A DNA stretch of 64,000 nt from Oscillospiraceae bacterium (GTDB lineage: Bacteria; Bacillota; Clostridia; Oscillospirales; Ruminococcaceae): the NCBI GenBank assembly GCA_902363145.1, contig CABIZB010000003.1, positions 1-64,000 of the forward strand. Reading direction: 5' to 3'. Within the stretch, counting starts at the first letter, position 1. Each line of letters begins with the position of its first letter. This document shows positions 48,440 to 63,538 of the stretch, piece after piece. Position numbers and translations under genes: made by a program. Under the pieces are notes generated by a model. That model had not been told where the DNA came from. It saw only the letters and a list, made by a program, of their open reading frames with translations, and did no database searches.

Positions 48440-49381
48440 ATGAGCAACAAAGTCACTATTATCGGCGCTGGCAGCGTCGGATCTACCATCGCTTATAACA
48501 TGGTAGTAACCGGTATCGCATCTGAGATCGTTCTGATCGATATCAACGCAAAAAAGGCTGAGGGCGAAGCAATGGATATCCTCCAGGGTGTTCCTTTCTG
48601 TTCCCCCGTATCCATCTACGCAGGCACATATGCCGATGCAAAGGGTTCCGACATCGTTATCCTTACATCAGGTATGCCCAGAAAAGCAGGTCAGTCTCGT
48701 CTTGAACTTGCTCAGGTAAACGTTGACATCACCAAGACCATAATCCCCGAGATCGTCAAGTACGCTCCTGAGGCTGTTTATATCGTAGTAAGCAATCCTA
48801 TCGATATCCTCACCTACGTATTCCACAAGTACTCGGGTCTCCCCTCCAACCAGATCATCGGTTCCGGCACAACCCTCGATACCGCTCGTCTGCGTTCCCG
48901 TCTTTCCGAGACCTTCAATATCAGCCAGCAGAACGTTCACGCTTACGTATTCGGTGAGCACGGCGATTCCTCTTTCGTTCCCTGGTCCATCGCAAACATT
49001 TCCGGTATCCCCATCAACCAGTACATCAACTGCCTCCCCGAGGGCAAGCGTCCCGTTGTTGATTACGCTGAGATCGAGGAATACACAAGAAAGTCCGGCG
49101 CTAAGATCATCGCAAGCAAGGGCGCTACATTCTATGCAATCGCTATCTCCGTATGCCACATCTGCAAGTGCCTGTTCAGCGGCATCGACACCACTCTTAC
49201 CGTTTCCACAATGATGAACGGCGAGTACGGCATCAACGATGTATGTCTCAGCACACTGGCAACAGTTGGCCGCAAGGGTGTTGAGGGCAAGCTCATGGTT
49301 CCCCTTACCGATGATGAGATCGTTAAGCTCAGACACAGTGCCGACTGCCTGAAGGACGTTATCCACAACATCAATCTTTAA
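48440..49381 (+). CDS. ldh: L-lactate dehydrogenase
   Basis: A 313-residue NAD-dependent L-lactate dehydrogenase reducing pyruvate to lactate. NAD fold KVTIIGAGSVGSTIAYNMVV, then TSGMPRKAGQSRLELAQVN with the substrate Arg, SGTTLDTARLRSRLSE and GEHGDSSFVPWS with the catalytic His (about 174). The Gln in GQSR and the GEHGDS motif favour lactate over malate dehydrogenase. Very strong codon bias points to high expression. The ATG follows GAAAGCGGGA. It stands just upstream of fumC but has its own hairpin. Confidence 0.93.
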   Translation: MSNKVTIIGAGSVGSTIAYNMVVTGIASEIVLIDINAKKAEGEAMDILQGVPFCSPVSIYAGTYADAKGSDIVILTSGMPRKAGQSRLELAQVNVDITKTIIPEIVKYAPEAVYIVVSNPIDILTYVFHKYSGLPSNQIIGSGTTLDTARLRSRLSETFNISQQNVHAYVFGEHGDSSFVPWSIANISGIPINQYINCLPEGKRPVVDYAEIEEYTRKSGAKIIASKGATFYAIAISVCHICKCLFSGIDTTLTVSTMMNGEYGINDVCLSTLATVGRKGVEGKLMVPLTDDEIVKLRHSADCLKDVIHNINL

Positions 49382-49403: not shown

Positions 49404-49431
49404 GGCGGCAGAGTGTTTTTTCACTGCCGCC
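49404..49431 (+). terminator. Hairpin between ldh and fumC
   Basis: GGCGGCAG/CTGCCGCC arms. There is no U-run after it, so it may only attenuate, or stabilise the 3' end. Confidence 0.4.
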
Positions 49432-49491: not shown

Positions 49492-50868
49492 ATGGAATAC
49501 CGTATTGAACACGATTCAATGGGCGAGGTAAAGGTTCCTGCAGACAAGTACTGGGCTGCTCAGACCGAGAGAAGCCACGAGAACTTCCTCATCGGCGTTG
49601 GCATCGAGACAATGCCCAGAGAGATCACCAAGGCATTCGGTTATCTCAAAAAGGCTGCTGCAATGGCAAACCACGCTCTCAAGCCTGAGAAAATGACAGA
49701 TGAAAAGCTGACTGCTATTTCCGAGGCTTGCGACGAAGTTATCAGCGGAAGCCTGAACGACCACTTCCCTCTCGTTGTATGGCAGACAGGAAGCGGCACT
49801 CAGTCCAACATGAACGCTAACGAAGTTATTGCCAACCGTGGAAACGAGATCGCAGGCAAGAAGCTTCTTCACCCCAATGATGATATCAACATGAGCCAGT
49901 CCTCCAACGATACCTTCCCCACTGCAATGCACATTTCCGCTGTTATTGCTATTGAGGATAAGGTTATCCCCGCTGTGGATACTCTCATCGAAACCTTCAA
50001 GAGACTTGAAAAGGAAAACGAGGGCATCGTTAAGAGCGGCAGAACTCATCTTCAGGACGCTACCCCCATCGCTTTCTCTCAGGAGATCAGCGGCTGGCGC
50101 TCCTCTCTCGAAAAGGATAAGAAGCTCCTTGAAATCGCTCTTCCCGAGCTTAAAGAGCTTGCTCTCGGCGGTACTGCCGTTGGTACAGGTCTTAACACCC
50201 CCAAGGGCTTTGATGTAAAGGTCGCAGAGGCTGTTTCCGAGCTTACAGGCAAGGATTTCAAGACTGCTCCCAACAAGTTCCACGCTCTTACAAGCAAGGA
50301 CGAGATCGTATTTGCTCACGGTGCTCTCAAGGCTCTCGCTGCTGATATGATGAAGATCGCCAACGACGTAAGATGGCTGGCAAGCGGACCCAGAGACGGT
50401 CTCGGCGAGATCACTATCCCCGAGAACGAGCCCGGTTCCTCAATCATGCCCGGCAAGGTCAACCCCACTCAGTGCGAGCAGGTAACAATGGTCGCAGTTC
50501 AGGTAATGGGCAACGACGTAGCTGTTGGTATGGCTGCAAGCCAGGGCAACTTCGAGCTGAATGTTTTCATGCCCGTATGCGCTTACAACTTCCTCCAGTC
50601 CGCAAGACTTCTTGCTGAGTCCATCACTTCCTTCAACAAGAACTGCGCTGTCGGAATCAAGGCAAACAAGGATAAGATGCACCACAACCTTCACAACTCT
50701 CTTATGCTGGTAACAGCTCTCAACCCCTACATCGGCTATGAGAACGCCGCTAAGACCGCAAAGAAGGCATTCAAGGACAACATCTCCCTCAAGGAAGCCT
50801 GCGTAGAGCTTGGTTTCCTCACCGCTGAAAAGTTTGACGAGGTATTCCACCCCGAACAGATGATATAA
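49492..50868 (+). CDS. fumC: Class II fumarase
   Basis: A 458-residue fumarase of the oxygen-stable class II type, interconverting malate and fumarate. Motifs: HDSMGEVKVPADKYWAAQTE, VWQTGSGTQSNMNANEVIAN, SQSSNDTFPTAMHISA and the signature GSSIMPGKVNPTQCE (about 313-327). The superfamily includes aspartase, but T.SN.N and GSGTQ...NMN suit fumarase. Strong codon bias. Its stop is 20 bp before hdrB, so it probably belongs to the same transcript and supplies fumarate to the reductase encoded at the far end. Confidence 0.92.
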   Translation: MEYRIEHDSMGEVKVPADKYWAAQTERSHENFLIGVGIETMPREITKAFGYLKKAAAMANHALKPEKMTDEKLTAISEACDEVISGSLNDHFPLVVWQTGSGTQSNMNANEVIANRGNEIAGKKLLHPNDDINMSQSSNDTFPTAMHISAVIAIEDKVIPAVDTLIETFKRLEKENEGIVKSGRTHLQDATPIAFSQEISGWRSSLEKDKKLLEIALPELKELALGGTAVGTGLNTPKGFDVKVAEAVSELTGKDFKTAPNKFHALTSKDEIVFAHGALKALAADMMKIANDVRWLASGPRDGLGEITIPENEPGSSIMPGKVNPTQCEQVTMVAVQVMGNDVAVGMAASQGNFELNVFMPVCAYNFLQSARLLAESITSFNKNCAVGIKANKDKMHHNLHNSLMLVTALNPYIGYENAAKTAKKAFKDNISLKEACVELGFLTAEKFDEVFHPEQMI

Positions 50869-50888
50869 AAAACGAAAGGATAAAAGCT

Positions 50889-51668
50889 ATGGTTTACAGT
50901 TACTATCCGGGCTGCACTCTGAAAAACAAGGCACAGGACCTTGACAGATATGCCCGTCTTTCCGCACAGGCGCTGGGAATCACGCTTGAGGAAATCGAAA
51001 ACTGGCAGTGCTGCGGCGGCGTTTATCCGATGGCAAAGGACGAGATCGCTACTAAGCTTTCCTCCGTCAGAGCACTTGCCGACGCCAAAGCACACGGCAG
51101 AGACTTAATAACTCTCTGCTCTGCCTGTCATAACGTTCTCAAGCAGGTCAACAATGATATGCTCACCGATGAGGACATCTGCACAAGAGCAAACAATTAT
51201 CTGAAGCTCGATGAAGAATATCACGGCGAGACCAAGGTAGTTCATTACCTTGAAATGCTCCGTGATGTTATAGGCTTCGATACCCTGAAGTCCAAGGTGG
51301 TAAATCCCCTTACAGGCAAGAAGATAGGCGCTTACTACGGCTGCCTGCTCCTCCGCCCCGGCAAGGTTCTTCAGATGGACGACCCCGAAAATCCCAAGAT
51401 CATGGAGGACTTTATCCGTGCTCTGGGTGCTGAACCCGTTATCTACCCCATGAGAAACGAGTGCTGCGGCGGTTACGTTTCCATCGAGGACAAGGCTGCT
51501 GCCGAAAGCAGAAGAAACATCGTTGCTGCAAGCGCAGCAGGCTTTGAGGCTGAGATGATGATAACTGCTTGTCCTCTTTGTATGTACAACCTTAAGAAGA
51601 ACGACAGCAACGTTCCCGTTTACTATTTCACCGAGCTTCTCGCTGAGGCTCTCGGCGTAAAGGACTAA
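50889..51668 (+). CDS. hdrB: Heterodisulfide reductase subunit B homologue
   Basis: A 259-residue HdrB-type protein with two CCG domains, which in methanogens hold two noncubane [4Fe-4S] clusters at the disulfide-reducing site. All cysteines are present in both repeats: YYPGCTLK, WQCCGGVYP, TLCSACHNVL and YYGCLLLRPGK, RNECCGGYVS, ITACPLCMYNL. A fermenting bacterium has no CoM/CoB, so the natural substrate is another electron carrier or disulfide. It is cotranscribed with hdrC 12 bp downstream. Confidence 0.93.
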   Translation: MVYSYYPGCTLKNKAQDLDRYARLSAQALGITLEEIENWQCCGGVYPMAKDEIATKLSSVRALADAKAHGRDLITLCSACHNVLKQVNNDMLTDEDICTRANNYLKLDEEYHGETKVVHYLEMLRDVIGFDTLKSKVVNPLTGKKIGAYYGCLLLRPGKVLQMDDPENPKIMEDFIRALGAEPVIYPMRNECCGGYVSIEDKAAAESRRNIVAASAAGFEAEMMITACPLCMYNLKKNDSNVPVYYFTELLAEALGVKD

Positions 51669-51680
51669 GGAGGCACGACG

Positions 51681-52058
51681 ATGGATAAAAAAGAAGAAAT
51701 CCTCCGCATAAGCGGCGTTAATGTCCGTAAATGTATGCGCTGCGGCAAATGCTCAGGCACCTGCCCCTCCTACGACAAGATGGAATATCATCCTCACCAG
51801 TTCGTATATATGGTTGAGTCCGGCAATATCGAGCCTCTTCTCAAGAGCGAGTCACTTTATATGTGTCTTTCATGCTTTGCGTGTGTCGAAAGATGTCCCA
51901 GAGGCGTTGAGCCCGCAAAGGTAGTAGAGGCTGTAAGACTTGCGGCTATCAGACAGAAGGGCTGCAACCATCTCAAGGCAAATCAGGTTCCGGAACTTAT
52001 TGACGAGGATACTCCTCAGCAGCTCCTTGTCAGCGCATTCCGTAAATACAGTAAATAA
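51681..52058 (+). CDS. hdrC: Heterodisulfide reductase subunit C homologue
   Basis: A 125-residue ferredoxin-like subunit with two [4Fe-4S] motifs, CMRCGKCSGTCPS (about 17-29) and CLSCFACVERCPRG (about 60-73), both CxxCxxCxxxCP. In Hdr complexes it wires HdrA to HdrB. ATG follows AGGAGGCACG. It keeps the conserved helical tail but has no added domain. Confidence 0.93.
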   Translation: MDKKEEILRISGVNVRKCMRCGKCSGTCPSYDKMEYHPHQFVYMVESGNIEPLLKSESLYMCLSCFACVERCPRGVEPAKVVEAVRLAAIRQKGCNHLKANQVPELIDEDTPQQLLVSAFRKYSK

Positions 52059-52073
52059 GGAGGAGAAAAATCA

Positions 52074-54086
52074 ATGCATAGAATAGGCGTATTTGTATGC
52101 CACTGCGGTACCAACATCGCTGCTACCGTTGACGTCAAGCAGGTTGCTGAAGCCATGAAGCAGGAGCCCGGCGTAGTCTTCTCCACAGATTATCAGTATA
52201 TGTGTTCCGAAGGCGGTCAGACAATGATCCAGGATACTATCAGGGATCAGAAGCTCACAGGCGTTGTTGTCTGCTCATGTTCACCCCGTATGCACGAGGC
52301 TACATTCAGAAAGGCTGCCGCTAAAGCAGGTCTTAACTCTTACATGGTAGAAATTGCCAATATCCGTGAGCAGTGCTCCTGGATACACAAGGATATCATG
52401 TCCGCTACAGAAAAGGCTATAATCCTTGCACGTACAGCAGTTGCAAAGGTTCAGCTCAACGCTCCCCTCATCGCAGGCGAAAGCCCCGTTACCAAGCGTG
52501 CCCTCGTTATCGGCGGCGGTATCGCAGGTATGCAGACTGCTCTTGATATCGCTGAGGCAGGCTTCGATGTTGATATCGTTGAGAAGCAGCCCACTATCGG
52601 CGGAAAGATGACCCAGATCGACAAGACCTTCCCTACCCTCGACTGCGCATCCTGTATCCTTACTCCTAAGATGGTTGACTGCTCACAGAATGAGAAGATC
52701 CACATCTACGCATACAGCGAGGTTGCTGAGGTTTCAGGCTTCGTAGGAAACTTCACCGCAAAGATCAGAAAGAAAGCTCGTTTCGTTGATGCTACCAAGT
52801 GCACAGGCTGCGGCGTCTGCACAGAAAAGTGCCCTCAGAAGAAGGTACCCAACGAGTTCAATATGGGCTTCAATAACAGACGTGCCATCTACATTCCTTT
52901 TGCTCAGGCAGTTCCCAAGGTCGCTACCATTGACCCCAACTACTGCACAATGCTCAAGACAGGCAAGTGCGGCGTTTGCTCCAAGGTATGCTCCGCAGGC
53001 GCTATCGACTACACTCAGAAGGACGAGATCATTGAGGAAAAGTACGGCGCAATCGTTGCCGCTACCGGTTACAACCCCATCAATATCGACAAGTACGATG
53101 AGTTCGCATATTCCCAGAGCAAGGACGTTATCACTTCTCTCGAGCTTGAAAGACTTATGAATGCCGCAGGTCCTTCCAACGGTACTCTCGTAAGACCTTC
53201 TTACCTCGACAAGCAGGACGACCACAGAGCTCACCCCAAGACCATCGTTTTCGTTCAGTGCGTAGGCTCCAGATCGGACGACGGCTGCGGAAAGCCCTAC
53301 TGCTCCAAGATCTGCTGTATGTACACCGCTAAGCACGCAATGCTTATCAGAGAAAAATATCCCGATACAAACGTATATGTATTCTATATTGATGTCCGTA
53401 CTCCCGGTAAGCTCTTCGATGAGTTCTACCGCAGAGCTGTTGAACAGTACGGCGTTCACTACATAAAGGGTATGGTCGGAAAGGTTTCCCCCAGACCTGA
53501 CGGAAATCTTGATGTTCAGGCATCTGACCTTATCGCTAACGAGCAGCTCCATATCAACGCTGATCTGGTAGTTCTCGCAACCGCTATCGAGCCTGACAAG
53601 TCCGCCCGTTCCGTAGCTACAATGCTCAGAGCAAGTATGGATACCAACGACTTCTTCACCGAGGCTCATGCAAAGCTTCGTCCCGTAGAGAGCCCCACAG
53701 CAGGCGTATTCCTCTCAGGCGTATGCCAGGGCCCCAAGGATATCCCCGAGACCGTTTCTCAGGCCAGCGCTGCTGCTGCCAAGGTAATCGGACTCCTTGC
53801 AAAGGACAAGCTCACAGGCAACCCCTGCGTTGCTCACTCCGATGAGCTTATGTGCAACGGCTGCTCTTCCTGCGAGAAGGTTTGTCCTTACGGTGCTATC
53901 ACATATTCCGACAAGGAATTCAGACAGCCTGACAGAACAACGGCTATCCGCCGTGTAGCTTCCGTAAACGAGGCTGTATGCCAGGGCTGCGGCGCTTGTA
54001 CAGTTGCCTGCCCGTCCGGAGCTATGGATCTTAAGGGCTTCTCCAATAAACAGATTATGGCGGAGGTAGATGCAATATGCAAGTAA
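52074..54086 (+). CDS. hdrA: Heterodisulfide reductase subunit A homologue (FAD, bifurcating flavoprotein)
   Basis: 670 residues in HdrA order: N-terminal HRIGVFVCHCGTNIAATVDV region, FAD fold LVIGGGIAGMQTALDIAEAG (about 143-163), inserted ferredoxin CTGCGVCTEKCPQKK, a thioredoxin-reductase-like part with CVGSRSDDGCGKPYCSKICC, and C-terminal ferredoxin CNGCSSCEKVCPYGAI and CQGCGACTVACPSGAMD. In methanogens the HdrA flavin splits electron pairs between ferredoxin and the disulfide. Here it is the likely bifurcating core between the Flx and HdrBC/Frd modules. Its end overlaps flxD by 10 bp. Confidence 0.94.
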   Translation: MHRIGVFVCHCGTNIAATVDVKQVAEAMKQEPGVVFSTDYQYMCSEGGQTMIQDTIRDQKLTGVVVCSCSPRMHEATFRKAAAKAGLNSYMVEIANIREQCSWIHKDIMSATEKAIILARTAVAKVQLNAPLIAGESPVTKRALVIGGGIAGMQTALDIAEAGFDVDIVEKQPTIGGKMTQIDKTFPTLDCASCILTPKMVDCSQNEKIHIYAYSEVAEVSGFVGNFTAKIRKKARFVDATKCTGCGVCTEKCPQKKVPNEFNMGFNNRRAIYIPFAQAVPKVATIDPNYCTMLKTGKCGVCSKVCSAGAIDYTQKDEIIEEKYGAIVAATGYNPINIDKYDEFAYSQSKDVITSLELERLMNAAGPSNGTLVRPSYLDKQDDHRAHPKTIVFVQCVGSRSDDGCGKPYCSKICCMYTAKHAMLIREKYPDTNVYVFYIDVRTPGKLFDEFYRRAVEQYGVHYIKGMVGKVSPRPDGNLDVQASDLIANEQLHINADLVVLATAIEPDKSARSVATMLRASMDTNDFFTEAHAKLRPVESPTAGVFLSGVCQGPKDIPETVSQASAAAAKVIGLLAKDKLTGNPCVAHSDELMCNGCSSCEKVCPYGAITYSDKEFRQPDRTTAIRRVASVNEAVCQGCGACTVACPSGAMDLKGFSNKQIMAEVDAICK

Positions 54087-54523
54087 ATGAAAACAAAGAA
54101 TTCAAGCCTCTGATCGTGGCTTTCTGCTGCAACTGGTGCTCATATGCGGGCGCTGACCTCGCAGGTACCAACAGACTCAACTACCCTGCCGATGTCAAGA
54201 TCATACGTGTTCCCTGCTCCTGCCGTGTAAACCCCATGTTTATCCTCCGTGCCTTCCAGAGAGGCGCTGACGGCGTTATCATGTGCGGCTGCCACCCCGG
54301 AGACTGCCACTACACTTCCGGCAACTACTTTGCAAGAAGAAGAATGACCCTGCTGTTCTCCATGCTCGACTTCATGGGCATCGAGAAGGAAAGAACCCGT
54401 GTTGAATGGGTATCCGCTGCAGAGGGTGCAAAGTTCGCCGCTACAATGAACGAGTTCGTTGAGACTGTTACCAAGCTCGGCGAAAACAAGAGATTGGAGG
54501 ATCTGAGATGCAAGAAGCAGTAA
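54077..54523 (+). CDS. flxD: MvhD/FlxD-type iron-sulfur protein
   Basis: A 148-residue MvhD-family protein: FCCNWCSYAGADLAGTNRL, VPCSCRVNPMFILRAFQRGADGV, MCGCHPGDCHYTSGN. These cysteines bind a [2Fe-2S] cluster that passes electrons from the donor module to HdrA. It overlaps hdrA at the start and flxC by 16 bp at the end, so the chain is tightly coupled. In hydrogenase-linked systems the donor is MvhAG; here the neighbours are Flx proteins, so NAD(P)H is the likely donor. Confidence 0.92.
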   Translation: MQVNENKEFKPLIVAFCCNWCSYAGADLAGTNRLNYPADVKIIRVPCSCRVNPMFILRAFQRGADGVIMCGCHPGDCHYTSGNYFARRRMTLLFSMLDFMGIEKERTRVEWVSAAEGAKFAATMNEFVETVTKLGENKRLEDLRCKKQ

Positions 54524-55485
54524 TCAAGCGCGCTAAAGAGCTTCTGGCAGACGGCACTGTTAACCGTGTTGTAGGCTGGAAAGCAGGCGAATTTGCTTAC
54601 GATACCACCCCTGCCGTTTTCACATCGGCTGAGGAGCTGGACGCAGGCTTCATTTACAACGATTTCTGTGCGCCTAACCTTTCAAAGTACCTGGTAAAGG
54701 AATCCCGCAAGGAGGGCAAGCTCCTGGTATTCCTCAAGCCCTGCGATACATACAGCTTCAATCAGCTCCTTAAAGAGCATAGGATCCTCCGTGACAACGT
54801 TTATATCATCGGCGTTGAGTGCACAGGCAAGGTTGACGCTGATACCGTTAAGTCCAAGGGTATCAAGGGTATCACAGGCATGGAAAGCGACGGCGAGACC
54901 GTTACTATCCACACTCTTTACGGCGACAAGACAATGCCCAAGACCGAAACTCTCGGCGACAAGTGCAAGACCTGCAAGAGCAAGAAGCACGTTATTTTTG
55001 ATGAGATGATCGGAAACGACGGCGAAGTAAATACCGACGGCGCACGCTTTGAGCTTGTTGAAAAGCTGGAAGCAATGACTCCCGACGAGCGCTACAACTT
55101 CTGGAGAGGCGAGCTTTCCAAGTGCATCCGCTGCAACGCATGCAGAAATGTATGTCCTGCCTGCACCTGTGAAAACTGCGTATTCGATAACCCCAACTCC
55201 GGTATCGCTCAGAGAGCCGCTACCGACTCCTTCGAGGAGAATATGTTCCACCTTATCCGATCCTTCCACGTTGCGGGCAGATGCACAGACTGCGGCGAAT
55301 GTACAAGAGTTTGTCCTCAGAACATTCCCCTGCACCTCATCAACCGCAAGTACATCAAGGATATCAACGAATTCTACGGCGATTATCAGGCAGGTTCGGA
55401 TCTCGAGACCCGTGCTCCTCTTAACGCTTACACATTCGGCGACTGCGAACCCAACATTGTATATAAAAGAGGAGGTAACGAATAA
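54508..55485 (+). CDS. flxC: FrhB/FdhB-like iron-sulfur protein (Flx module)
   Basis: A 325-residue 4Fe-4S protein. The first part (about 1-190) resembles FrhB-type domains (LVFLKPCDTYSFNQLLKEH, YIIGVECTGKVD). Two clusters follow: CIRCNACRNVCPACTCENC (about 212-230) and CTDCGECTRVCPQNIPL (about 259-275). An additional CKTCKSKKH motif lies near 152. Such a protein accompanies FlxA and FlxB in the bacterial FlxABCD-HdrABC complexes; letter assignment of the subunits is by position and may differ between authors. Confidence 0.78.
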   Translation: MQEAVIKRAKELLADGTVNRVVGWKAGEFAYDTTPAVFTSAEELDAGFIYNDFCAPNLSKYLVKESRKEGKLLVFLKPCDTYSFNQLLKEHRILRDNVYIIGVECTGKVDADTVKSKGIKGITGMESDGETVTIHTLYGDKTMPKTETLGDKCKTCKSKKHVIFDEMIGNDGEVNTDGARFELVEKLEAMTPDERYNFWRGELSKCIRCNACRNVCPACTCENCVFDNPNSGIAQRAATDSFEENMFHLIRSFHVAGRCTDCGECTRVCPQNIPLHLINRKYIKDINEFYGDYQAGSDLETRAPLNAYTFGDCEPNIVYKRGGNE

Positions 55486-56504
55486 TGTTCAAGCTTCCTA
55501 TAGATAAACTTGACGCACTTTTTGCGGCTGTGGCTTCCGCAAGCACACTTTATCTCCCCGTTGACGGCAATGACGGCAGGGCAAGCTACAAGAAATGGTC
55601 CGAGGGCACAAAGATGAGCAAGGCTCTCAACACCGTAAGAAGTGCCAAGGATTTCTTCTTCCCCCAGACCCAGAACCTCTGCGACTTCAATGTCAAGGGT
55701 CAGAACATCGAGATCATCGACAACAGAACCGAGAGCGAGGATTTCGTAGTATTCGGCGTTCGTGCCTGCGATGCAAGAAGCTTCACCATTCTGGACAAGG
55801 TTTTCCTTGCAGACCCTGTTGACAGCTACTATGCTACCCGCCGTGAGCACGGAACCATTGTTACAATGGCTTGCACCGAGCCTGAGGAAAACTGCTTCTG
55901 CGGCGTGTTTGGCATCGACGCTGCTGCTCCAGAGGGAGACGCTGCCTGCTGGACCACTGAGAACGCTGTTTACATTCAGGCAAACACCGAAAAGGGCGAG
56001 AAGTTCATCGAGTCCGTAAAGTCCCTCCTTACCGAGTGCGGCAGCGAGGCTGTTGACGCTCAGAAGGCTGAGACAAAGAAGATCCTCGAAAAGCTCCCCT
56101 TCGCAAATGTTTCCACTGATTATTTCAGAAAGAACACTCTTCTCGATATCTTCAATTCCGATAAGTGGGCAAAGCTTTCCGAATCCTGCCTTGGCTGCGG
56201 AACCTGCACATTCGTTTGCCCCACCTGCCAGTGCTACGATATCAAGGACTATGACACAGGCCACGGTATCAAGCGCTACAGAACCTGGGACAGCTGTATG
56301 TACTCCGACTTCACAAAGATGGCTGCCGCCAACTCCAGAAATACCCAGCTCCAGCGTTTCAGACAGCGCTTCATGCACAAGCTGGTTTATTTCCCCGACA
56401 ACAACAACGGCGAGTTCGGCTGCGTAGGCTGCGGACGCTGCCTGTCCAGATGCCCCATTTCCATGAATATCATTAAGGTCATCAAGAATTTCGGAGAGGA
56501 GTAA
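55485..56504 (+). CDS. flxB: AsrA-like iron-sulfur protein (Flx module)
   Basis: A 339-residue protein like subunit A of anaerobic sulfite reductase: FVVFGVRACDARSFTILDKV, then two ferredoxin motifs CLGCGTCTFVCPTCQCYDI (about 228-246) and CVGCGRCLSRCPISMNI (about 313-329), with RTWDSCMYSDFT between. ATG overlaps the previous stop (TAATG). It carries electrons between the flavin subunit encoded next and the other Fe-S subunits. No sulfite reductase catalytic subunit is encoded nearby, which argues against a role in sulfite reduction. Confidence 0.85.
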   Translation: MFKLPIDKLDALFAAVASASTLYLPVDGNDGRASYKKWSEGTKMSKALNTVRSAKDFFFPQTQNLCDFNVKGQNIEIIDNRTESEDFVVFGVRACDARSFTILDKVFLADPVDSYYATRREHGTIVTMACTEPEENCFCGVFGIDAAAPEGDAACWTTENAVYIQANTEKGEKFIESVKSLLTECGSEAVDAQKAETKKILEKLPFANVSTDYFRKNTLLDIFNSDKWAKLSESCLGCGTCTFVCPTCQCYDIKDYDTGHGIKRYRTWDSCMYSDFTKMAAANSRNTQLQRFRQRFMHKLVYFPDNNNGEFGCVGCGRCLSRCPISMNIIKVIKNFGEE

Positions 56505-56511
56505 TAAAATA

Positions 56512-57339
56512 ATGCTGAATGAAACTTTGATCCCCAGAATCGGCGTTGTTACTGATATCCGTCAGGATACTCCCGACGTCAAGACATTCAGAGTTGTCGG
56601 CACAGACGGAAAGAAGCTCTTTGAGCATATTCCCGGTCAGTGTGCGATGCTCTCTGTTCCCGGTGTAGGCGAGGGTATGTTCTCCATCACCTCCTCCCCC
56701 ACCAACGAAGAATATATGGAATTTTCCATCAAGAAGTGCGGCTGCCTTACATCATGGCTCCACATGATGGACGTTGGCCAGCAGATCACAGTAAGAGGCC
56801 CCTACGGAAACGGCTTCCCTGTTGAGACTGACTTCAAGGGCAAGAACCTTCTGTTCATCGCAGGCGGTATCGGTCTTGCTCCTCTGCGCTCCGTTATCAA
56901 CTATGTACGTGACAAGCGTGAGAATTACGGCACCGTTCAGATCATCTACGGTTCCCGTTCCAAGGACGACCTGGTAGATTATCAGGAGATCATCAACGAG
57001 TGGATGGCTGACGACGGCATCGAAGTCAACCTCACCATCGACCGTGAGCAGGAAGGCTGGGACGGCCACGTTGGATTCGTTCCCAACTACGTTAAGGAGC
57101 TTAACCCCGACATCACAAAGACTGTTGTAATGTGCGGACCTCCTATCATGATCAAGTTCACACTCGGCGGTCTGAAGGAACTGGGCTTCAACGAGACCCA
57201 GGTATTCACTACCATGGAGCTGAGAATGAAGTGTGCGATCGGCAAGTGCGGCAGATGCAACATCGGCAACAAGTATGTCTGCAAGGACGGCCCCGTATTC
57301 AGATTTGACCAGCTCAGCGAGCTGCCTAACGAATATTGA
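56512..57339 (+). CDS. flxA: AsrB-like FAD/NAD(P)H-binding oxidoreductase subunit (Flx module)
   Basis: A 275-residue ferredoxin-reductase-like subunit. The FAD domain holds GQCAMLSVPGVGEGMFSITS, the nucleotide domain holds LLFIAGGIGLAPLRSVINYV and VVMCGPPIMIKFTLGGLKEL, and the C-terminal cysteine cluster MKCAIGKCGRCNIGNKYVC binds [2Fe-2S]. It is the predicted entry point for NADH or NADPH. The gene starts 7 bp after flxB and ends 19 bp before frdB. Confidence 0.92.
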   Translation: MLNETLIPRIGVVTDIRQDTPDVKTFRVVGTDGKKLFEHIPGQCAMLSVPGVGEGMFSITSSPTNEEYMEFSIKKCGCLTSWLHMMDVGQQITVRGPYGNGFPVETDFKGKNLLFIAGGIGLAPLRSVINYVRDKRENYGTVQIIYGSRSKDDLVDYQEIINEWMADDGIEVNLTIDREQEGWDGHVGFVPNYVKELNPDITKTVVMCGPPIMIKFTLGGLKELGFNETQVFTTMELRMKCAIGKCGRCNIGNKYVCKDGPVFRFDQLSELPNEY

Positions 57340-57358
57340 TTAAGGAGTGAATTTCAAG

Positions 57359-58033
57359 ATGGAAAAAATGGTAAACATCTATCTGTTCGGCAAGCAGTAC
57401 ACAGTTCCTGCAAGCCTTACAATCATGAAGGCTATGGAATATGCCGGATATCAGCTTATCAGAGGCTGCGGATGCAGAAACGGCTTCTGCGGCGCTTGTG
57501 CAACTATCTACAGAGTAAAGGGCGATCCCGAGCTCAAGACCTGTCTCGCATGTCAGACCCAGGTTCAGGAAAATATGTACATCGCTACCCTGCCTTTCTT
57601 CCCCCTCGTAAAGCAGATCTACGATATAAACAATATCCCTACCACACAGGCTGTTATGATGCAGCTTTATCCTGAGATCTACAGCTGCGTAGGCTGCAAT
57701 GCCTGCACAAAGGCTTGTACTCAGAAGCTCAACGTTATGCAGTACATCGCATACGCTCAGAGAGGCGATTTCGCTAAGTGCGCAGAAGAATCCTTTGACT
57801 GCGTAATGTGCGGCGTTTGCTCCTCCAGATGCCCCGCAGGCATCTCTCATCCTCAGGTCGGAATGCTTGCAAGAAGAATCAACGGCAAGTACCTTATGCC
57901 CAAGTCCCAGCACCTTGAGGACAGAGTTAAGGAGATCCATAACGGTGATTTCAAGGAATTCCTTGACACTCTTATGGCTGAATCTGATGAGCAGCTTCAG
58001 GAACGCTACAATAACAGAGATATTGAAAAGTAA
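57359..58033 (+). CDS. frdB: Fumarate reductase iron-sulfur subunit, soluble type
   Basis: A 224-residue FrdB/TfrB-like protein. A [2Fe-2S] domain (GCGCRNGFCGACATIY, KTCLACQ) is followed by two motifs CVGCNACTKACTQ (about 115-126) and CVMCGVCSSRCPAG (about 146-159). Both are complete CxxCxxCxxxC sets, so two [4Fe-4S] clusters are expected instead of the [4Fe-4S] plus [3Fe-4S] of membrane-bound fumarate reductases. No quinone-site region or anchor gene is present. ATG 57359 follows AAGGAG. It probably links the Hdr-Flx module to FrdA. Confidence 0.85.
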   Translation: MEKMVNIYLFGKQYTVPASLTIMKAMEYAGYQLIRGCGCRNGFCGACATIYRVKGDPELKTCLACQTQVQENMYIATLPFFPLVKQIYDINNIPTTQAVMMQLYPEIYSCVGCNACTKACTQKLNVMQYIAYAQRGDFAKCAEESFDCVMCGVCSSRCPAGISHPQVGMLARRINGKYLMPKSQHLEDRVKEIHNGDFKEFLDTLMAESDEQLQERYNNRDIEK

Positions 58034-58047
58034 GGGAGGCGCCGTAA

Positions 58048-59649
58048 ATGTACACTAATGAAGAAATGCTTGCCTCTATTAAGAAGGTTGAAGCAAACAG
58101 AGCTGCAAACGCAGCATATGAGCCTGCAAGAATGACCGCTGAGCAGAAGGACGAGGTCCTCAAGACCTACCACCCCGACTACATTGAGTCTCAGTTCGAG
58201 GATCTTAAGATCGGCCCCAACAAGGGCGATAAGGTTCCCCACGAGCTGGCTGCTCTTCTCCAGGCTAACAGCCGTATCGATCCCTCCAAGATCGACCTTG
58301 AGCACCCCAAGTACGATGTTGACGTTCTCATCATCGGCGGCGGCGGAGCAGGTTCTTCCGCAGCTATCGAGGCTCACAACGGCGGCGCTAACGTAATGAT
58401 CGTTACAAAGCTCCGTATCGGCGATGCTAACACAATGATGGCTGAGGGCGGTATCCAGGCTGCTGATAAGCCCAACGATTCCCCTGCTATCCACTACATC
58501 GACGCTTACGGCGGAGGTCACTTCAAGGGCAAGCATGAGCTGGTTTACAAGCTCGTTAATGAAGCTCCCGACGCTATCAAGTGGCTCAATGAGCTGGGCG
58601 TTGAATTCGATAAGGCTCCCGACGGAACCATGATTACCACCCACGGCGGCGGAACCTCCAGAAAGAGAATGCACGCCTGCAAGGACTACTCCGGCGCAGA
58701 GATCATGAAGACTCTCCGTGACGAAGTTCTCAACAGACAGATCCCCGTTGTTGACTTTACCGCTGCTATCGAGATAATCCTCGACGATCAGGGCAAGGCA
58801 GCAGGTGCTGTTCTCATGAACATGGAGACCAAGGAGATCATGGTAGCTAAGGCTAAGACCGTTATCATCGCAACAGGCGGTGCAGGTCGTCTCCATTACC
58901 AGGGCTTCCCCACCTCCAACCACTACGGCGCAACCGCAGACGGACTTGTTCTTGCATACCGTGCAGGCGCTAAGCTCCTCTACGCTGATTCTCTCCAGTA
59001 CCACCCCACAGGCGCAGCATTCCCCGAGCAGATCTTCGGCGCTCTCGTAACTGAGAAGGTTCGTTCCCTCGGTGCAAAGCTCGTTAACGTTGACGGTGAA
59101 GTATTCATGCATCCCCTGGAGACCCGTGATATCTGCGCATCCTCTATCATCAGAGAGTGCAAGGCAAGACACAAGGGCATCAGCACAGGCGACGGTGAAG
59201 GCGTATGGCTCGATACTCCTATGATCGAACTCAAGAACGGCGAGGGCACTATCGAAAAGAGAATCCCCGCAATGCTCAGAATGTTCATGGAGTACGGCAT
59301 TGATATCCGTAAGGAACCTATCATCGTATATCCTACCCTCCACTACCAGAACGGCGGTATCGACATCACCGATGACGGCATGAGCGGCATTGAGAACCTC
59401 TACGTTGCAGGTGAGGCTGTAGGCGGTATCCACGGCAGAAACAGACTTATGGGCAACTCCCTCCTGGACGTTATCGTATTCGGCAGAAACGCAGGTAGAA
59501 GCGTTGCAGCTAAGTACAAGAACGTTACAGTTGGCAAGCTCACACTTGACCACGTAAACAAGTTCGCTGAGGAAATGAAGGAAGCAGGCATCGTTACCGA
59601 TGTTGTTTCTCCTAAGCTTCTCCCCGACTACGCAAGAAGAGCTAACTGA
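58048..59649 (+). CDS. frdA: Fumarate reductase flavoprotein subunit, soluble type
   Basis: 533 residues with an unusual N-terminal extension of about 90 residues before the FAD fold (VDVLIIGGGGAGSSAAIEAH). Family motifs follow: MMAEGGIQAA, THGGGTSRKRMHACKDYSG, YHPTGAAFPEQI, HYQNGGIDI and LYVAGEAVGGIHGRNRLMGN with the catalytic region. The His that binds FAD covalently in FrdA/SdhA (SHT before AEGG) is replaced by GDANTMMAEGG, so FAD should be noncovalent, as in NadB and thiol:fumarate reductase. No frdC or frdD follows. A start after GGGAGG is clear. Aspartate oxidase is less likely given the frdB partner. Confidence 0.87.
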   Translation: MYTNEEMLASIKKVEANRAANAAYEPARMTAEQKDEVLKTYHPDYIESQFEDLKIGPNKGDKVPHELAALLQANSRIDPSKIDLEHPKYDVDVLIIGGGGAGSSAAIEAHNGGANVMIVTKLRIGDANTMMAEGGIQAADKPNDSPAIHYIDAYGGGHFKGKHELVYKLVNEAPDAIKWLNELGVEFDKAPDGTMITTHGGGTSRKRMHACKDYSGAEIMKTLRDEVLNRQIPVVDFTAAIEIILDDQGKAAGAVLMNMETKEIMVAKAKTVIIATGGAGRLHYQGFPTSNHYGATADGLVLAYRAGAKLLYADSLQYHPTGAAFPEQIFGALVTEKVRSLGAKLVNVDGEVFMHPLETRDICASSIIRECKARHKGISTGDGEGVWLDTPMIELKNGEGTIEKRIPAMLRMFMEYGIDIRKEPIIVYPTLHYQNGGIDITDDGMSGIENLYVAGEAVGGIHGRNRLMGNSLLDVIVFGRNAGRSVAAKYKNVTVGKLTLDHVNKFAEEMKEAGIVTDVVSPKLLPDYARRAN

Positions 59650-59727
59650 TAAGTAAATTTTCTGTTAAAAAATAGTTTTTTGACTATGATTTTCCGAAAA
59701 TTTGTAGTATAATTTTAAAGGCACTTT

Positions 59728-59756
59728 CAAACCCCTGCAATTTTTGCGGGGGTTTG
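59728..59756 (+). terminator. Hairpin between frdA and the AspT-type gene
   Basis: CAAACCCCTGCAA/TTGCGGGGGTTTG, 13-bp arms with a 3-nt loop, followed by TAATGTGTTGTGTGTTTTTTTT. A TATAAT at 59709-59714 lies just before it, so a promoter with an immediate hairpin is an alternative reading. Confidence 0.55.
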
Positions 59757-59867
59757 TAATGTGTTGTGTGTTTTTTTTCGGGATAGTCCGATTTAGGCAT
59801 GATTTCCTGCTTTTCTATCGTGTTTTAATCGGAATGTCCTCAATATTATGTTTGGAGGTCAAACCCT

Positions 59868-61145
59868 ATGAGTTTATTCGGCGGCGTGATATCCATTACA
59901 GGTATCACATTCCTGATGTTCATCATCTTTATCGTCGCAGGTCTGGGCTATCTTCTTGGCCGTGTAACGATAAAGGGCGTTTCTCTCGGAACAGCAGGTG
60001 TATTCATCGTAGCTCTTCTCATCGGCGCATTCTGCTTTGCAAGTGAAGGTAGCAATCTGGTAACAACATTTGCGCTCAATAACGGAGAGCCTGCAGAGTT
60101 CTCAAAGAACTTCCTCAAGATCATCGAAAATCTCGGACTTATCATGTTTGTTACATCAGTTGGCTTTATCGCAGGCCCCAACTTCTTCTCAAGCTTAAAG
60201 AAGAACTTCAAGTCCTATGCGCTTCTCTCGCTCGTAATCATCATACTGGGCGGTCTCACAGCGCTTTTCTGCATCAAGGTCCTTGGCTGCGGCACTGCAA
60301 TGGCAGTAGGTCTGCTTTCCGGTGCACTTACCTCCACACCCGCATTCTCCGCCGCAAAGGATACTCTCAGCTCGGTTTACAATGAAACTCCCGATGCAAT
60401 ATCCGCTTTTGAGGATATCGTAACAGTAGGTCACGGTATCGCTTACCTCTTCGGCGTTGTAGGCGTTGTTCTCTTTGTTCAGATCGTTCCCAAGCTCCTC
60501 AAGGCTGACATTGACGAGGAAAGAGCAAAGATCGCATCTGTAAGCACAGGCAAGTCCAGAAATGAAAGCAAGAAGCTTTTCGATATCGACAACTTCGGTC
60601 TTGCAGCATTTGCTATCGCAGTTGTTATCGGTATTTTCGTAGGCGGCATCAAGATCCCTATGGGTCAGTCCACCTTCTCTCTGGGAACCACAGGCGGCTG
60701 CCTGCTTTCCGCACTTGTTATCGCTCACTTCGGTCACTTCGGCCCTCTCTCAATGAAGCCTGAAAAGCGTATGCTTGAGATCTTCCGTGAATTCGGTCTT
60801 ATGGCGTTCCTTATCGGCGCAGGTATCCCCGGCGGCGCAAGCTTTGTAAAGTACTTCCAGCCCATCTACTTCTTGGAGGGTGCGCTCATGACTATCGTTC
60901 CCATGGTAGTCGGCTTTATTATTGCAAAGTATGTTATCAAGCTTCCCCTCTTCAACAATCTGGGCGGTATCACAGGCGGTATGACTTCTACCCCCGCACT
61001 CGGAACCCTTATCAATGTTGCAAAGACCGATGATGTAGCTTCCGCATATGCAGCTGCATATCCCATCGCTCTTATCGCAGTTGTTCTGGTTTCCCAGTTT
61101 ATCATCGTACTGTTCCCCGATCAGCTTTCCGTAATAGGAATGTAA
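59868..61145 (+). CDS. AspT/YidE-family transporter, candidate dicarboxylate exporter
   Basis: A 425-residue membrane protein with two aspartate:alanine-exchanger (AspT) repeats. They carry the matching motifs GLIMFVTSVGFIAGPNFF / GLMAFLIGAGIPGGASF and GLLSGALTSTPAFSAA / GGITGGMTSTPALGTL. About 10-12 helices are split by a charged loop near 205-235. Members include the AspT antiporter and the SucE succinate exporter; the RCK domains of SucE are missing here. Position after fumarase and fumarate reductase suggests export of succinate or exchange of dicarboxylates. Strong codon bias like its neighbours. Confidence 0.8.
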   Translation: MSLFGGVISITGITFLMFIIFIVAGLGYLLGRVTIKGVSLGTAGVFIVALLIGAFCFASEGSNLVTTFALNNGEPAEFSKNFLKIIENLGLIMFVTSVGFIAGPNFFSSLKKNFKSYALLSLVIIILGGLTALFCIKVLGCGTAMAVGLLSGALTSTPAFSAAKDTLSSVYNETPDAISAFEDIVTVGHGIAYLFGVVGVVLFVQIVPKLLKADIDEERAKIASVSTGKSRNESKKLFDIDNFGLAAFAIAVVIGIFVGGIKIPMGQSTFSLGTTGGCLLSALVIAHFGHFGPLSMKPEKRMLEIFREFGLMAFLIGAGIPGGASFVKYFQPIYFLEGALMTIVPMVVGFIIAKYVIKLPLFNNLGGITGGMTSTPALGTLINVAKTDDVASAYAAAYPIALIAVVLVSQFIIVLFPDQLSVIGM

Positions 61146-61164
61146 TTTTATAACACAAAACAAG

Positions 61165-61200
61165 GCGTCTGTGCTGCTATGCAGTGCAGGCGCTTTTTTT
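61165..61200 (+). terminator. Intrinsic terminator of the AspT-type gene
   Basis: GCGTCTGTGCTGC/GCAGTGCAGGCGC with a 3-nt loop and seven T. Confidence 0.8.
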
Positions 61201-61279
61201 ATGAAAAAATTGCCTGATGAATAATACTTCCTGCAAAATTTATACTATTCATAAAAGTAAATTGAAAGGATATGCTTTT

Positions 61280-62662
61280 ATGAATACAAGAAAAATACTG
61301 CTTTGCGTGACAGCTTTGTCAATGCTTTCCTCAACACTGACAGCCTGCGGACAGAAAAATGACAACGCCGCAGATAACAATACTGTGGGTCAGTCCGACA
61401 CCGCAAAGAAAACCACAATAAGATTTCTGAACTTCAAGCCCGAGGTCGCCTCAGTTTATGACGAGGTAGCCGCAAAATACAAGGAAGAAACAGGCAACAC
61501 TCTTATCGTGGAAACTGCTGCAAACAATACCTATGAGCAGACCCTCAGCGCAAAAATGTCCACATCGGAAGCACCCACCATATTCCAGATAAACGGCCCC
61601 AGAGGATACGCAAACTGGCGTGACTACTGCCTTGACCTGACCGACAGCGACATCTACAAACACCTTACCGATAAGACCGCAGCCGTTTCAACCAACGGCA
61701 TGGCATACGGTATCCCCTACACCGTGGAGGGCTACGGCATAATTTACAATGACGAGATAATTGAACGGTATTTTGCCCTTGACAGCCGAACCACCGACTT
61801 TGTTTCCATGGACGAAGTAAACTCCTTTGATAAGCTCAAAGCGCTGGTGGAGGATATGCAGGCAAATGCCGATGCTCTGGGAATAAAGGGCGTGTTTGCG
61901 GCAACATCTCTTAAATCGGGCGATGACTGGCGCTGGACAACTCATCTGGCAAATGTACCCATTGCCTATGAGTTTGAGAAAAACGACATCGACCTGACAG
62001 GCAGCGGGATAGGCAAGATAAACTTCGACTACAGCGATAATTTCAGAAACATCTTTGACCTTTATATCAACAACTCAACCGTGGACAGAAAAATGCTCGG
62101 CTCAAAGATAACCGACGAATCCATGGCAGAATTTGCCCTTGGTCAGTGCGCAATGGTGCAGAACGGCAGTTGGGCATGGTCGCAGATAAGCGGCATTCAG
62201 GGCAACGTTGTTTCGGAGGATAACATCAAAATGCTGCCTATCTATACAGGCATCGAGGGCGAGGAAGAGCAGGGCCTTTGCATCGGCACTGAAAATTACC
62301 TCTGCATCAATTCCACTGCCAAGCCTGAGGAGCAGCAGGCGGCAAAGGACTTCCTTTTCTGGCTCTATTCCAGCAAAACAGGCAAGGATTTTGCAGTAAA
62401 TAAGCTTGGCTTTATCGCTCCCTTTGACACATTCACCGATGATGAAAAGCCTGCCGACCCTCTCAGCCGTGAGGTGCTTAGGTGGATGGACAAGGAAAAT
62501 ATCCGCAGCATTCCCTGGAGCTTCACCGTGTTCCCCAGCCAGACCTTCAAGGACGACTTCGGTTCTGCGCTTCTCCAGTATGCTCAGGGAAGCAGGGACT
62601 GGGAATATGTCCGTGAGACTGTGATAACATCGTGGGAAAATGAAAGCTCGGCACTGAGCTGA
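61280..62662 (+). CDS. ABC transporter sugar-binding lipoprotein (CUT1)
   Basis: A 460-residue extracellular solute-binding protein family 1 member. It has a lipoprotein signal peptide with cleavage before Cys23 (SSTLTACGQ), then a polar linker and a mature fold with TTIRFLNFKPEVASVYDEVA, FALGQCAMVQNGSWAW and KPADPLSREVLRWM. It delivers a sugar or oligosaccharide to the two permeases encoded next. ATG 61280 follows GAAAGGATATG. No ATPase gene is in view; in Gram-positive bacteria a shared MsmK-type ATPase often serves. Substrate not determinable. Confidence 0.9.
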   Translation: MNTRKILLCVTALSMLSSTLTACGQKNDNAADNNTVGQSDTAKKTTIRFLNFKPEVASVYDEVAAKYKEETGNTLIVETAANNTYEQTLSAKMSTSEAPTIFQINGPRGYANWRDYCLDLTDSDIYKHLTDKTAAVSTNGMAYGIPYTVEGYGIIYNDEIIERYFALDSRTTDFVSMDEVNSFDKLKALVEDMQANADALGIKGVFAATSLKSGDDWRWTTHLANVPIAYEFEKNDIDLTGSGIGKINFDYSDNFRNIFDLYINNSTVDRKMLGSKITDESMAEFALGQCAMVQNGSWAWSQISGIQGNVVSEDNIKMLPIYTGIEGEEEQGLCIGTENYLCINSTAKPEEQQAAKDFLFWLYSSKTGKDFAVNKLGFIAPFDTFTDDEKPADPLSREVLRWMDKENIRSIPWSFTVFPSQTFKDDFGSALLQYAQGSRDWEYVRETVITSWENESSALS

Positions 62663-62695
62663 CACTTATCGACATTACCGAAAGGAGATTTTGCA

Positions 62696-63538
62696 ATGAA
62701 GAAAAATCTTCCGAGATACTTTCCCCTGTTCGTCCTGCCGACCTTTGCGGCGTTTGCAATGGCGTTCATTATCCCCTTTATCATGGGAATATGGCTGTCT
62801 TTCTGCAAATTTACCACGGTGAGCAACGCAAAATGGAGCGGACTTGACAACTACAGGCGGGCATTTTCCAACAGCGATTTCACAAACGCACTGTGGTTCA
62901 CGGTAAAATTCACCGTCGTATCGGTCATAACCGTAAATGTCTTTGCGTTCCTGCTGGCTCTGCTGCTGACCAAGGGCATAAAAGGCACAAACATTTTCCG
63001 AACAATATTTTTTATGCCTAACCTCATCGGCGGCATAGTGCTGGGATATATCTGGAACCTTATCATAAACGGCGTGCTGGCAATATTCGGCGTGGATATC
63101 ACATTCAAAGCCGAATACGGCTTTTGGGGACTGGTTATACTCACGAACTGGCAGCTTATCGGCTATATGATGGTCATTTATATCGCAGGACTGCAGAATA
63201 TCCCCCGTGACCTGAACGAAGCAGCTGAAATTGACGGCGCTTCCCACGGGCAGATACTGCGGAAAATAACCATTCCCATGGTGATGCCCTCTGTGACCAT
63301 ATGCACATTCCTCACGCTGACAAACTCCTTCAAGCTTTTTGACCAGAACCTTGCCCTCACCGCAGGCGCTCCCGGACGTGAAACGGCAATGCTGGCGCTG
63401 GATATCTACAACACATTTTACGGCAGAACGGGCTGGCAGGGCGCAGGTCAGGCAAAGGCGGCCATTTTCTTTGCTATCACAGCCGTTATCGCCTTTGTGC
63501 AGCTTAAGATCACAAGCCGAAGGGAGGTGCAGTCATGA
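62696..63538 (+). CDS. ABC transporter sugar permease, MalF type
   Basis: A 280-residue inner-membrane permease with six predicted helices. The ATPase-contacting EAA loop reads DLNEAAEIDGASHGQILRKI followed by TIPMVMPS, a good match to the CUT1 consensus. FMPNLIGGIVLGYIWN and LFDQNLALTAGAPGRETAML lie in the usual places. The ATG follows GAAAGGAGA. It overlaps the second permease gene by 4 bp (ATGA). Confidence 0.92.
   Translation: MKKNLPRYFPLFVLPTFAAFAMAFIIPFIMGIWLSFCKFTTVSNAKWSGLDNYRRAFSNSDFTNALWFTVKFTVVSVITVNVFAFLLALLLTKGIKGTNIFRTIFFMPNLIGGIVLGYIWNLIINGVLAIFGVDITFKAEYGFWGLVILTNWQLIGYMMVIYIAGLQNIPRDLNEAAEIDGASHGQILRKITIPMVMPSVTICTFLTLTNSFKLFDQNLALTAGAPGRETAMLALDIYNTFYGRTGWQGAGQAKAAIFFAITAVIAFVQLKITSRREVQS

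Follow-up and report, generated by a model that had tools for sequence, protein, structure and literature searches.

The window analysed here, positions 1 to 64,000 of contig CABIZB010000003.1 from an Oscillospiraceae bacterium, carries a cluster of eleven plus-strand genes that encode, in order, FumC, the heterodisulfide reductase-type proteins HdrB, HdrC and HdrA, the subunits FlxD, FlxC, FlxB and FlxA, the fumarate reductase-type proteins FrdB and FrdA, and an AspT-type permease (Table 1). The most likely reading, to which we assign a probability of roughly 0.6, is a soluble, quinone-free succinate-forming system in which a bifurcating Flx-HdrA unit would pass electrons through HdrBC directly to FrdBA. 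We infer the direct transfer from HdrB to FrdB, and support for the model was gained chiefly from a lineage of HdrB and HdrC that is associated with FrdBA.

In the proposed mechanism, FlxA would oxidize NAD(P)H and FlxB, FlxC and FlxD would relay the electrons to the HdrA flavin, where they would be split. The low-potential branch would exit via the ferredoxin domains of HdrA to ferredoxin (Fd), and the high-potential branch would run from HdrC to HdrB, FrdB and FrdA, where fumarate would be reduced. HdrB would donate to FrdB and not to a diffusible disulfide, such that HdrBC-FrdBA would resemble the head of a thiol:fumarate reductase or of SdhABE attached to a bifurcating Flx-HdrA. The net reaction would be 2 NADH + Fd(ox) + fumarate → 2 NAD + Fd(red) + succinate, for which we compute approximately -33 to -49 kJ/mol under standard conditions with Fd at -500 to -420 mV, using potentials that we assumed.

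At least 585 FrdA relatives were found in named genomes, and analysis of the best 80 revealed that conservation of the neighbours of frdA is far beyond chance. Among eligible relatives, meaning those whose contig extends far enough to reach the neighbour being counted, hdrB, hdrC and hdrA each lie 5′ of frdA in 58/58, flxD in 65/65, flxC in 66/66, flxB in 71/71, flxA in 73/73 and frdB in 77/77; fumC is present in 53/55, and an AspT gene lies within 3 kb 3′ of frdA in 42/59. An even draw of 147 genomes from the order, with both proteins counted at E ≤ 1e-100, contained FrdA in 27 and HdrA in 29. Every one of the 27 FrdA-positive genomes has exactly one HdrA, which in 26 of them shares the contig with FrdA at a distance of about 6 kb; the 27th (G295) is split at contig ends, where one locus (L204) stops in hdrA and another (L205) starts at flxD. 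HdrA without FrdA was seen in two genomes of this sample, G349, whose contig stops after flxD, and G303, which has a different HdrA type (47%). The Hdr-Flx-FrdBA set is gained and lost as one block within the one phylum to which sampling was limited.

The partnership extends to the type of HdrB. An even draw of 199 genomes from the phylum yielded HdrA in 81 (threshold E ≤ 1e-60) and the FrdA family in 20; a further weak match, in G168 (39%, residues 89-494), was left uncounted and its genome was scored FrdA-negative. HdrB matches with 41-82% identity to the window protein (E ≤ 2.5e-58) occur in 13 genomes, and the remaining listed matches (E ≤ 1e-40) have at most 39% identity and a best E of 6.1e-54, which leaves a gap below 41%. 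All 13 genomes are among the 20 FrdA-positive ones and none is among the 179 FrdA-negative ones (Fisher p ~1e-15, or ~1e-14 without G001, with relatedness ignored). A tree of 83 HdrB rows was built by a quick method, with the window type represented by the window itself and 6 of its 58 complete relatives; it omits L084, L087 and L105 (identical in place to L201-L203), L204 and L206-L208 (of window type, order sample), and HdrBs of <200 residues or <100 bits. One side of a single branch holds 16/16 Frd-linked rows and three others (Shimodaira–Hasegawa-like approximate likelihood-ratio support of 99); these three, from G020, G195 and G101, come from genomes with FrdBA elsewhere. FrdA-positive genomes also contribute ten HdrB rows that do not belong to the clade, namely the second HdrBs of G059, G098, G133, G190 and G054 and five rows of G043, G049, G085 and G090, genomes that lack a clade HdrB. 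Clade HdrBs are marked by nine positions, and the HdrC of the clade is short, with 126-136 residues (125 in the window) versus 172-212 in 63/64 others. The grouping of FrdA-linked HdrBs into one clade favours electron transfer from HdrB to FrdB. The earlier note on this DNA had proposed conserved linkage of Hdr-Flx with FrdAB as a check on its joint system, and the order sample, the phylum sample and the HdrB tree all show this linkage to be very strong.

Lys420 of HdrA aligns with Lys409 of 5odc_A, which we take to be the bifurcating-flavin lysine, and is lysine in 64/64 rows of at least 600 residues (frames broken to <600 residues by an in-frame TGA were excluded); the 4Fe-4S ligands of HdrA are kept in 61/61 rows. 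Conservation of these residues is in keeping with bifurcation, which we infer. The locus also has the seven subunits of FlxABCD-HdrABC and the flavin adenine dinucleotide (FAD) and NAD domains of FlxA, for which the closest solved chain is 9nez_C (188 bits). FlxC had been described as FrhB-like, a label that we abandon, as it has no FrhB Pfam match at E ≤ 1e-3 and features only 4Fe-4S domains.

At many Flx-Hdr loci without adjacent FrdBA (among them L086, L088-L092, L094-L098 and L100), hdrA is interrupted by an in-frame TGA at roughly residue 194 and flxD likewise has a shortened frame, as for selenocysteine. No such stop is seen in the main FrdBA-linked HdrA copies of the phylum and order samples, but G098 has it in a large second HdrA.

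FrdA has the fold and the His/Thr-Glu/Arg/His/Arg active site of a fumarate reductase flavoprotein, with residue roles that we assume. Complex II enzymes (FrdABCD/SdhABCD) feature a covalent-FAD histidine and a 3Fe-4S third cluster, and the window proteins depart from both: Asn128 replaces the histidine (Asn in 81/81 and 27/27 rows), and the third motif of FrdB is CxxCxxCxxxC (77/77 and 23/23 rows), from which a 4Fe-4S third cluster is predicted. Asparagine at the histidine position is the type of one-way fumarate reductases. The protein named FrdB in the earlier note is not a standard SdhB/FrdB: its family scores are without exception weak and partial, with SdhB/FrdB matched over the 2Fe-2S half and CdhA and RnfC over the cluster half. 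An AlphaFold2 model of FrdB (mean predicted local distance difference test score 63.8) was not used. One source (P0021) names frdA an L-aspartate oxidase. This name was rejected: His199 of FrdA, invariant in 50/50 and 81/81 rows, aligns with position 121 of E. coli NadB, presumably a glutamate in L-aspartate oxidase, and the neighbouring genes fit fumarate reduction.

The FrdA tree comprised the window, 6 of the 80 relatives and 20 phylum-sample loci. In a diverged FrdA group (L148-L150, 52-53%), Gln replaces the conserved His462 (GGVQGRNRL), which suggests a different substrate. Two of the 27 order genomes have frdA split in two frames (L206:8935-10538 and L207:9641-11238), probably through assembly error or decay; a programmed frameshift was ruled out, because the two shifts share a region yet do not fall at the same bases. 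A Clostridia-type cluster also appears in records titled Treponema and Spirochaetaceae (L040, L054), through either misbinning or transfer. A close relative has a second FrdA-like match (L005:18859, minus strand, 34% identity) about 7 kb past the cluster.

FrdBA occurs in several gene layouts, of which the window order is one. A second, frdB-frdA-hdrB-hdrC-hdrA-flxDCBA, is found in L139, L142, L144 and L145. A third consists of hdrC-hdrB-hdrA, another hdrA whose product has about 1060-1090 residues, flxD, flxC, frdB and frdA, accompanied by genes for malic enzyme and 2-oxoacid:ferredoxin oxidoreductase (family assignments are from L131; L132, L134 and L138 are laid out alike). In a fourth (L143), hdrC-hdrB-frdB-frdA lies near a tripartite ATP-independent periplasmic transporter with no adjoining hdrA or flx, an arrangement that speaks for the main model, and a fifth combines FrdBA with a fumarase subunit and a malic-enzyme-like gene and has no adjacent Hdr (families assigned in L140, which L141 and L146 resemble by frame sizes). 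A tentative extension of the model, for which we would give somewhat less than even odds, is that HdrBC-FrdBA acts as a plug-in fumarate-reducing head, in which the distinct HdrB/short-HdrC lineage is wired to FrdB and joined to varied donors, making a soluble, thiol-free, quinone-free bifurcating fumarate reductase across gut Clostridia. The donors would be Flx-HdrA in two gene orders and a double HdrA beside a 2-oxoacid:ferredoxin oxidoreductase gene, and one arrangement has no adjacent HdrA.

Energy conservation by such a system needs an outlet for ferredoxin, such as RnfC or a hydrogenase. We surveyed 35 FrdA-positive genomes (27 from the order sample and 8 others), most of which are drafts, so that absences are tentative. 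RnfC scores above cut-off in 30/35 and a group A [FeFe] hydrogenase is present in 28/35, with one or both in 35/35. The closest genomes by FrdA among the best 80 relatives are G001 (94% identity), G002 (93%) and G003 (91%); G001 and G003 have a hydrogenase and no RnfC above cut-off, and G002 has RnfC and no hydrogenase. As these outlets differ, the gain in the window organism could be an ion gradient or just H2 production and redox balance.

The earlier note had envisaged a soluble enzyme without membrane anchor or quinone. In line with this, menB was found in 0/35 of the surveyed genomes (controls positive in 11/14); PF02621 of the futalosine route to menaquinone, however, gave weak matches in 7/35 genomes, 5 of them above cut-off and most covering part of the model, which leaves room for that route. 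The enzyme is probably soluble and quinone-independent. The cluster genes include no frdCD/sdhCD anchor genes, although no genome-wide search for them was made. Retention of both noncubane-cluster motifs in HdrB would suit a thiol-mediated route, where a disulfide, on a small molecule or a protein, is reduced by Flx-Hdr and the thiol so formed is consumed by FrdBA with or without HdrB, much as the thiol:fumarate reductase (Tfr) of methanogens uses coenzyme M and coenzyme B thiols. Nothing significant has changed beside the HdrB ligands: 5/9 marking positions lie within three residues of a ligand versus 19/49 conserved positions (P 0.22), a control after which ligand-adjacent changes, at first taken as support for lost disulfide chemistry, were dropped and our confidence in the model and in its plug-in extension was reduced slightly. 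A DsrC route is also offered as an alternative in excerpts of PMC11636981. Against a thiol intermediate, which we regard as unlikely, the DsrC family was found in 0/35 genomes (controls positive in 1/14, E. coli), the HdrB type tracks FrdA, and Pfam shows no CCG domain in FrdB itself. A plain NADH:fumarate oxidoreductase, in which Hdr-Flx connects NADH to FrdBA without bifurcation, gains from the -68 kJ/mol of that reaction (potentials assumed), which makes coupling unneeded; the invariant Lys420 and 4Fe-4S ligands of HdrA and the ferredoxin outlet in every surveyed genome render it doubtful, at well under one chance in five.

Use in reverse, with succinate oxidized to fumarate and electrons confurcated to NAD+ at the expense of reduced ferredoxin, is improbable. 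The direction could differ in relatives such as L140 and L131, where FrdBA lies beside fumarase, malic enzyme, coenzyme A-transferase or 2-oxoacid:ferredoxin oxidoreductase genes, whereas the asparagine described above is presumed to mark one-way fumarate reductases, and the permease and malate dehydrogenase-like genes fit a fermentative succinate route. Because layouts without Hdr exist, FrdBA is not tied to Hdr alone: G077 and G081 have FrdA but gave matches to neither HdrA nor HdrB at the cut-offs applied, FrdBA neighbours in L133 match NrfH below cut-off (74.1 and 70.7 of 134.2), and FrdBA adjoins a cytochrome b561-domain protein in L149. These cases count against an exclusive Hdr partnership and would be expected if FrdBA had a different donor and Hdr-Flx were just co-regulated with it. 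For the window such an arrangement is very improbable, as one HdrB type is co-inherited with FrdA across several operon layouts and a single HdrA accompanies FrdA in all 27 order genomes.

Systems of this type have already been proposed in print, and the window provides a well-supported further case. According to excerpts of PMC7282089, bifurcating fumarate reduction has been proposed for the ‘succinate operon’ of Pseudoclostridium thermosuccinogenes (CDQ83_RS03365-03315), which encodes fumarase, Flx-Hdr (RS03360-30), fumarate reductase (RS03325-20) and a putative succinate transporter, and which that paper takes from a preprint (10.20944/preprints201912.0288.v1). The window has the same genes in the same order and, if the locus tags step by five, the same 1+7+2+1 composition; this likeness is by gene list and not by sequence, and the excerpts make no mention of HdrB type, of cofactor traits or of a neighbouring malate dehydrogenase gene. 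The same excerpts report the operon about 4-fold up under CO2 limitation, with significance not reached for every subunit, and cite older work in which H2 addition nearly abolished succinate and Na2S had the opposite effect; the H2 effect is read there as fitting a ferredoxin-linked enzyme. For tubeworm symbionts, Flx-Hdr, KorABCD and TfrAB were suggested to form a complex (PMC6315080, in part), and excerpts of PMC11636981 give the same Flx-Hdr/TfrAB model beside the DsrC-like alternative, with tfrAB expression departing from that of the cluster. As in the window, Flx-Hdr genes are interspersed with tfrAB in these symbionts and in Thioflavicoccus, and direct hand-off is proposed; those clusters differ in belonging to a reverse tricarboxylic acid cycle with 2-oxoglutarate:ferredoxin oxidoreductase, a comparison by description and not by sequence. 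A Blautia luti model employs an NADH-dependent fumarate reductase (PMC12773636), and its text does not contain the term Hdr. A fumarate reductase joined to Hdr-Flx is not described in the excerpts of PMC5861303, PMC9044749, PMC6776011 and PMC5296606, and no biochemical proof of one was found in the open-access literature searched.

Among NCBIfam models, the window HdrB scores highest with SdhE (139.8) and next with HdrB (129.8), both below cut-off. The former recalls the 8-methylmenaquinol:fumarate reductase SdhABE, but the score is far below the SdhE cut-off of 500 and there is no sign of a quinone role. The top NCBIfam match of FrdA is TfrA (337.5 of 718), and FrdB and HdrB weakly match the two parts of TfrB (36.4 and 33.3, respectively, of 385); we take these models, NF004900 and NF004898, to represent methanogen TfrAB. 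Methanogen TfrB is presumably a CCG domain fused to an FrdB-type iron–sulfur domain; unlike this fusion, the CCG part in the window is a separate hdrB gene beside HdrA and Flx. The cluster shares the HdrA, FlxD, FlxC, FlxB and FlxA set with FlxABCD-HdrABC of Desulfovibrio vulgaris, reportedly described by Ramos in 2015 and cited in PMC7282089, but has HdrB and HdrC of the FrdBA-associated type, and DsrC was not found in the 35 genomes surveyed. The present analysis adds the HdrB clade that goes with FrdBA, the distribution of the cluster, the exchange of neighbouring modules, the malate dehydrogenase candidate and the 4Fe-4S-type third motif of FrdB.

To our knowledge, several fibre-degrading Ruminococci produce succinate and have no known quinone. 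The cluster offers a concrete candidate for a soluble fumarate-reducing machine, present in 27/147 of the order genomes sampled. If the model is true, succinate output in the rumen and gut would be tied to ferredoxin and hence to H2, and the HdrB lineage makes the published suggestion of direct hand-off more sharply testable.

Table 1. Genes and other features of the fumarase–Hdr-Flx–Frd region of the window
Feature	Positions	Strand	Supporting match or detail
Lactate/malate dehydrogenase-family dehydrogenase, predicted malate dehydrogenase	48440..49381	+	Pfam Ldh_1_N/C
fumC, class II fumarase	49492..50868	+	TIGR00979 713.6 bits, cut-off 664.75
hdrB, two complete CCG motifs, FrdBA-associated clade	50889..51668	+	PF02754
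hdrC, short form of 125 residues, two 4Fe-4S motifs	51681..52058	+	TIGR03290 74 bits, below cut-off
hdrA, FAD subunit; Lys420 codon 53331-53333	52074..54086	+	5odc_A 677 bits
flxD, MvhD/FlpD type	54077..54523	+	PF02662 188.5 bits
flxC, 4Fe-4S subunit	54508..55485	+	Fer4-type domains alone
flxB, AsrA/sulfhydrogenase-beta type	55485..56504	+	PF17179 108 bits; NF040829 179 and TIGR02910 145 bits, both below cut-off
flxA, AsrB/sulfhydrogenase-gamma type, NAD(P)H:FAD subunit	56512..57339	+	PF00175, PF10418, PF00970
frdB, 2Fe-2S and two 4Fe-4S motifs; third motif 57800-57832	57347..58033	+	GTG start
frdA, fumarate-reductase-fold flavoprotein, non-covalent-type FAD site; Asn128, FAD loop 58411-58461	58048..59649	+	
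AspT-type permease, candidate succinate exporter	59868..61145	+	PF06826 in two stretches; TIGR01625 above cut-off
Terminator-like hairpin 3′ of permease gene	61162..61196	+	16 pairs, then T-run

The coordinates given earlier for the eleven genes are right and the families agree with Pfam and NCBIfam overall, flxC and FrdB being the exceptions. The tight packing was borne out: between fumC and frdA, adjacent genes overlap by up to 16 bp or stand up to 20 bp apart, and 218 bp separate frdA from the permease gene. The start of frdB in relatives was often placed 12 bases further in by our script. That inventory described the eleven genes and did not list the dehydrogenase gene 5′ of fumC. With two NCBIfam models for L-lactate dehydrogenase, the product of this gene exceeds the cut-off (364.4 of 339 and 340.8 of 303.55), and with a malate dehydrogenase subfamily model it falls marginally short (282.1 of 283). 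It is nevertheless predicted to be a malate dehydrogenase because Arg81 (48680-48682; R in 44/44 rows) sits at the position of a Gln in two lactate dehydrogenases, a substitution that we take to mark malate specificity; the name lactate dehydrogenase is doubted on this ground, not disproved. The gene lies 5′ of fumC in 43/52 eligible relatives and, if the prediction is right, the locus would span oxaloacetate, malate, fumarate, succinate and a possible exporter.

The permease has the two Asp-Al_Ex domains of the AspT/SucE type and scores below cut-off with the aspartate-alanine antiporter model (160 of 547), and is a candidate succinate exporter. Its gene may have its own promoter in the window, since a TATAAT box and a hairpin (CAAACCCC...GGGGTTTG) were found by eye in the 218-bp gap (59708-59756); the gap is often shorter in relatives, with a median of 46 bp. 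The scan that gave the hairpin 3′ of the permease gene found, overall, no more sites than in shuffled sequences. Between the malate dehydrogenase-like gene and fumC, a GC-rich inverted repeat seen by eye (49404-49431, GGCGGCAG...CTGCCGCC, with a T-run in its loop) is a possible processing or termination site. On the same strand 3′ of the cluster, the interval 61217-63538 encodes an ATP-binding cassette transporter-type solute-binding protein and, by eye, a permease-like frame.

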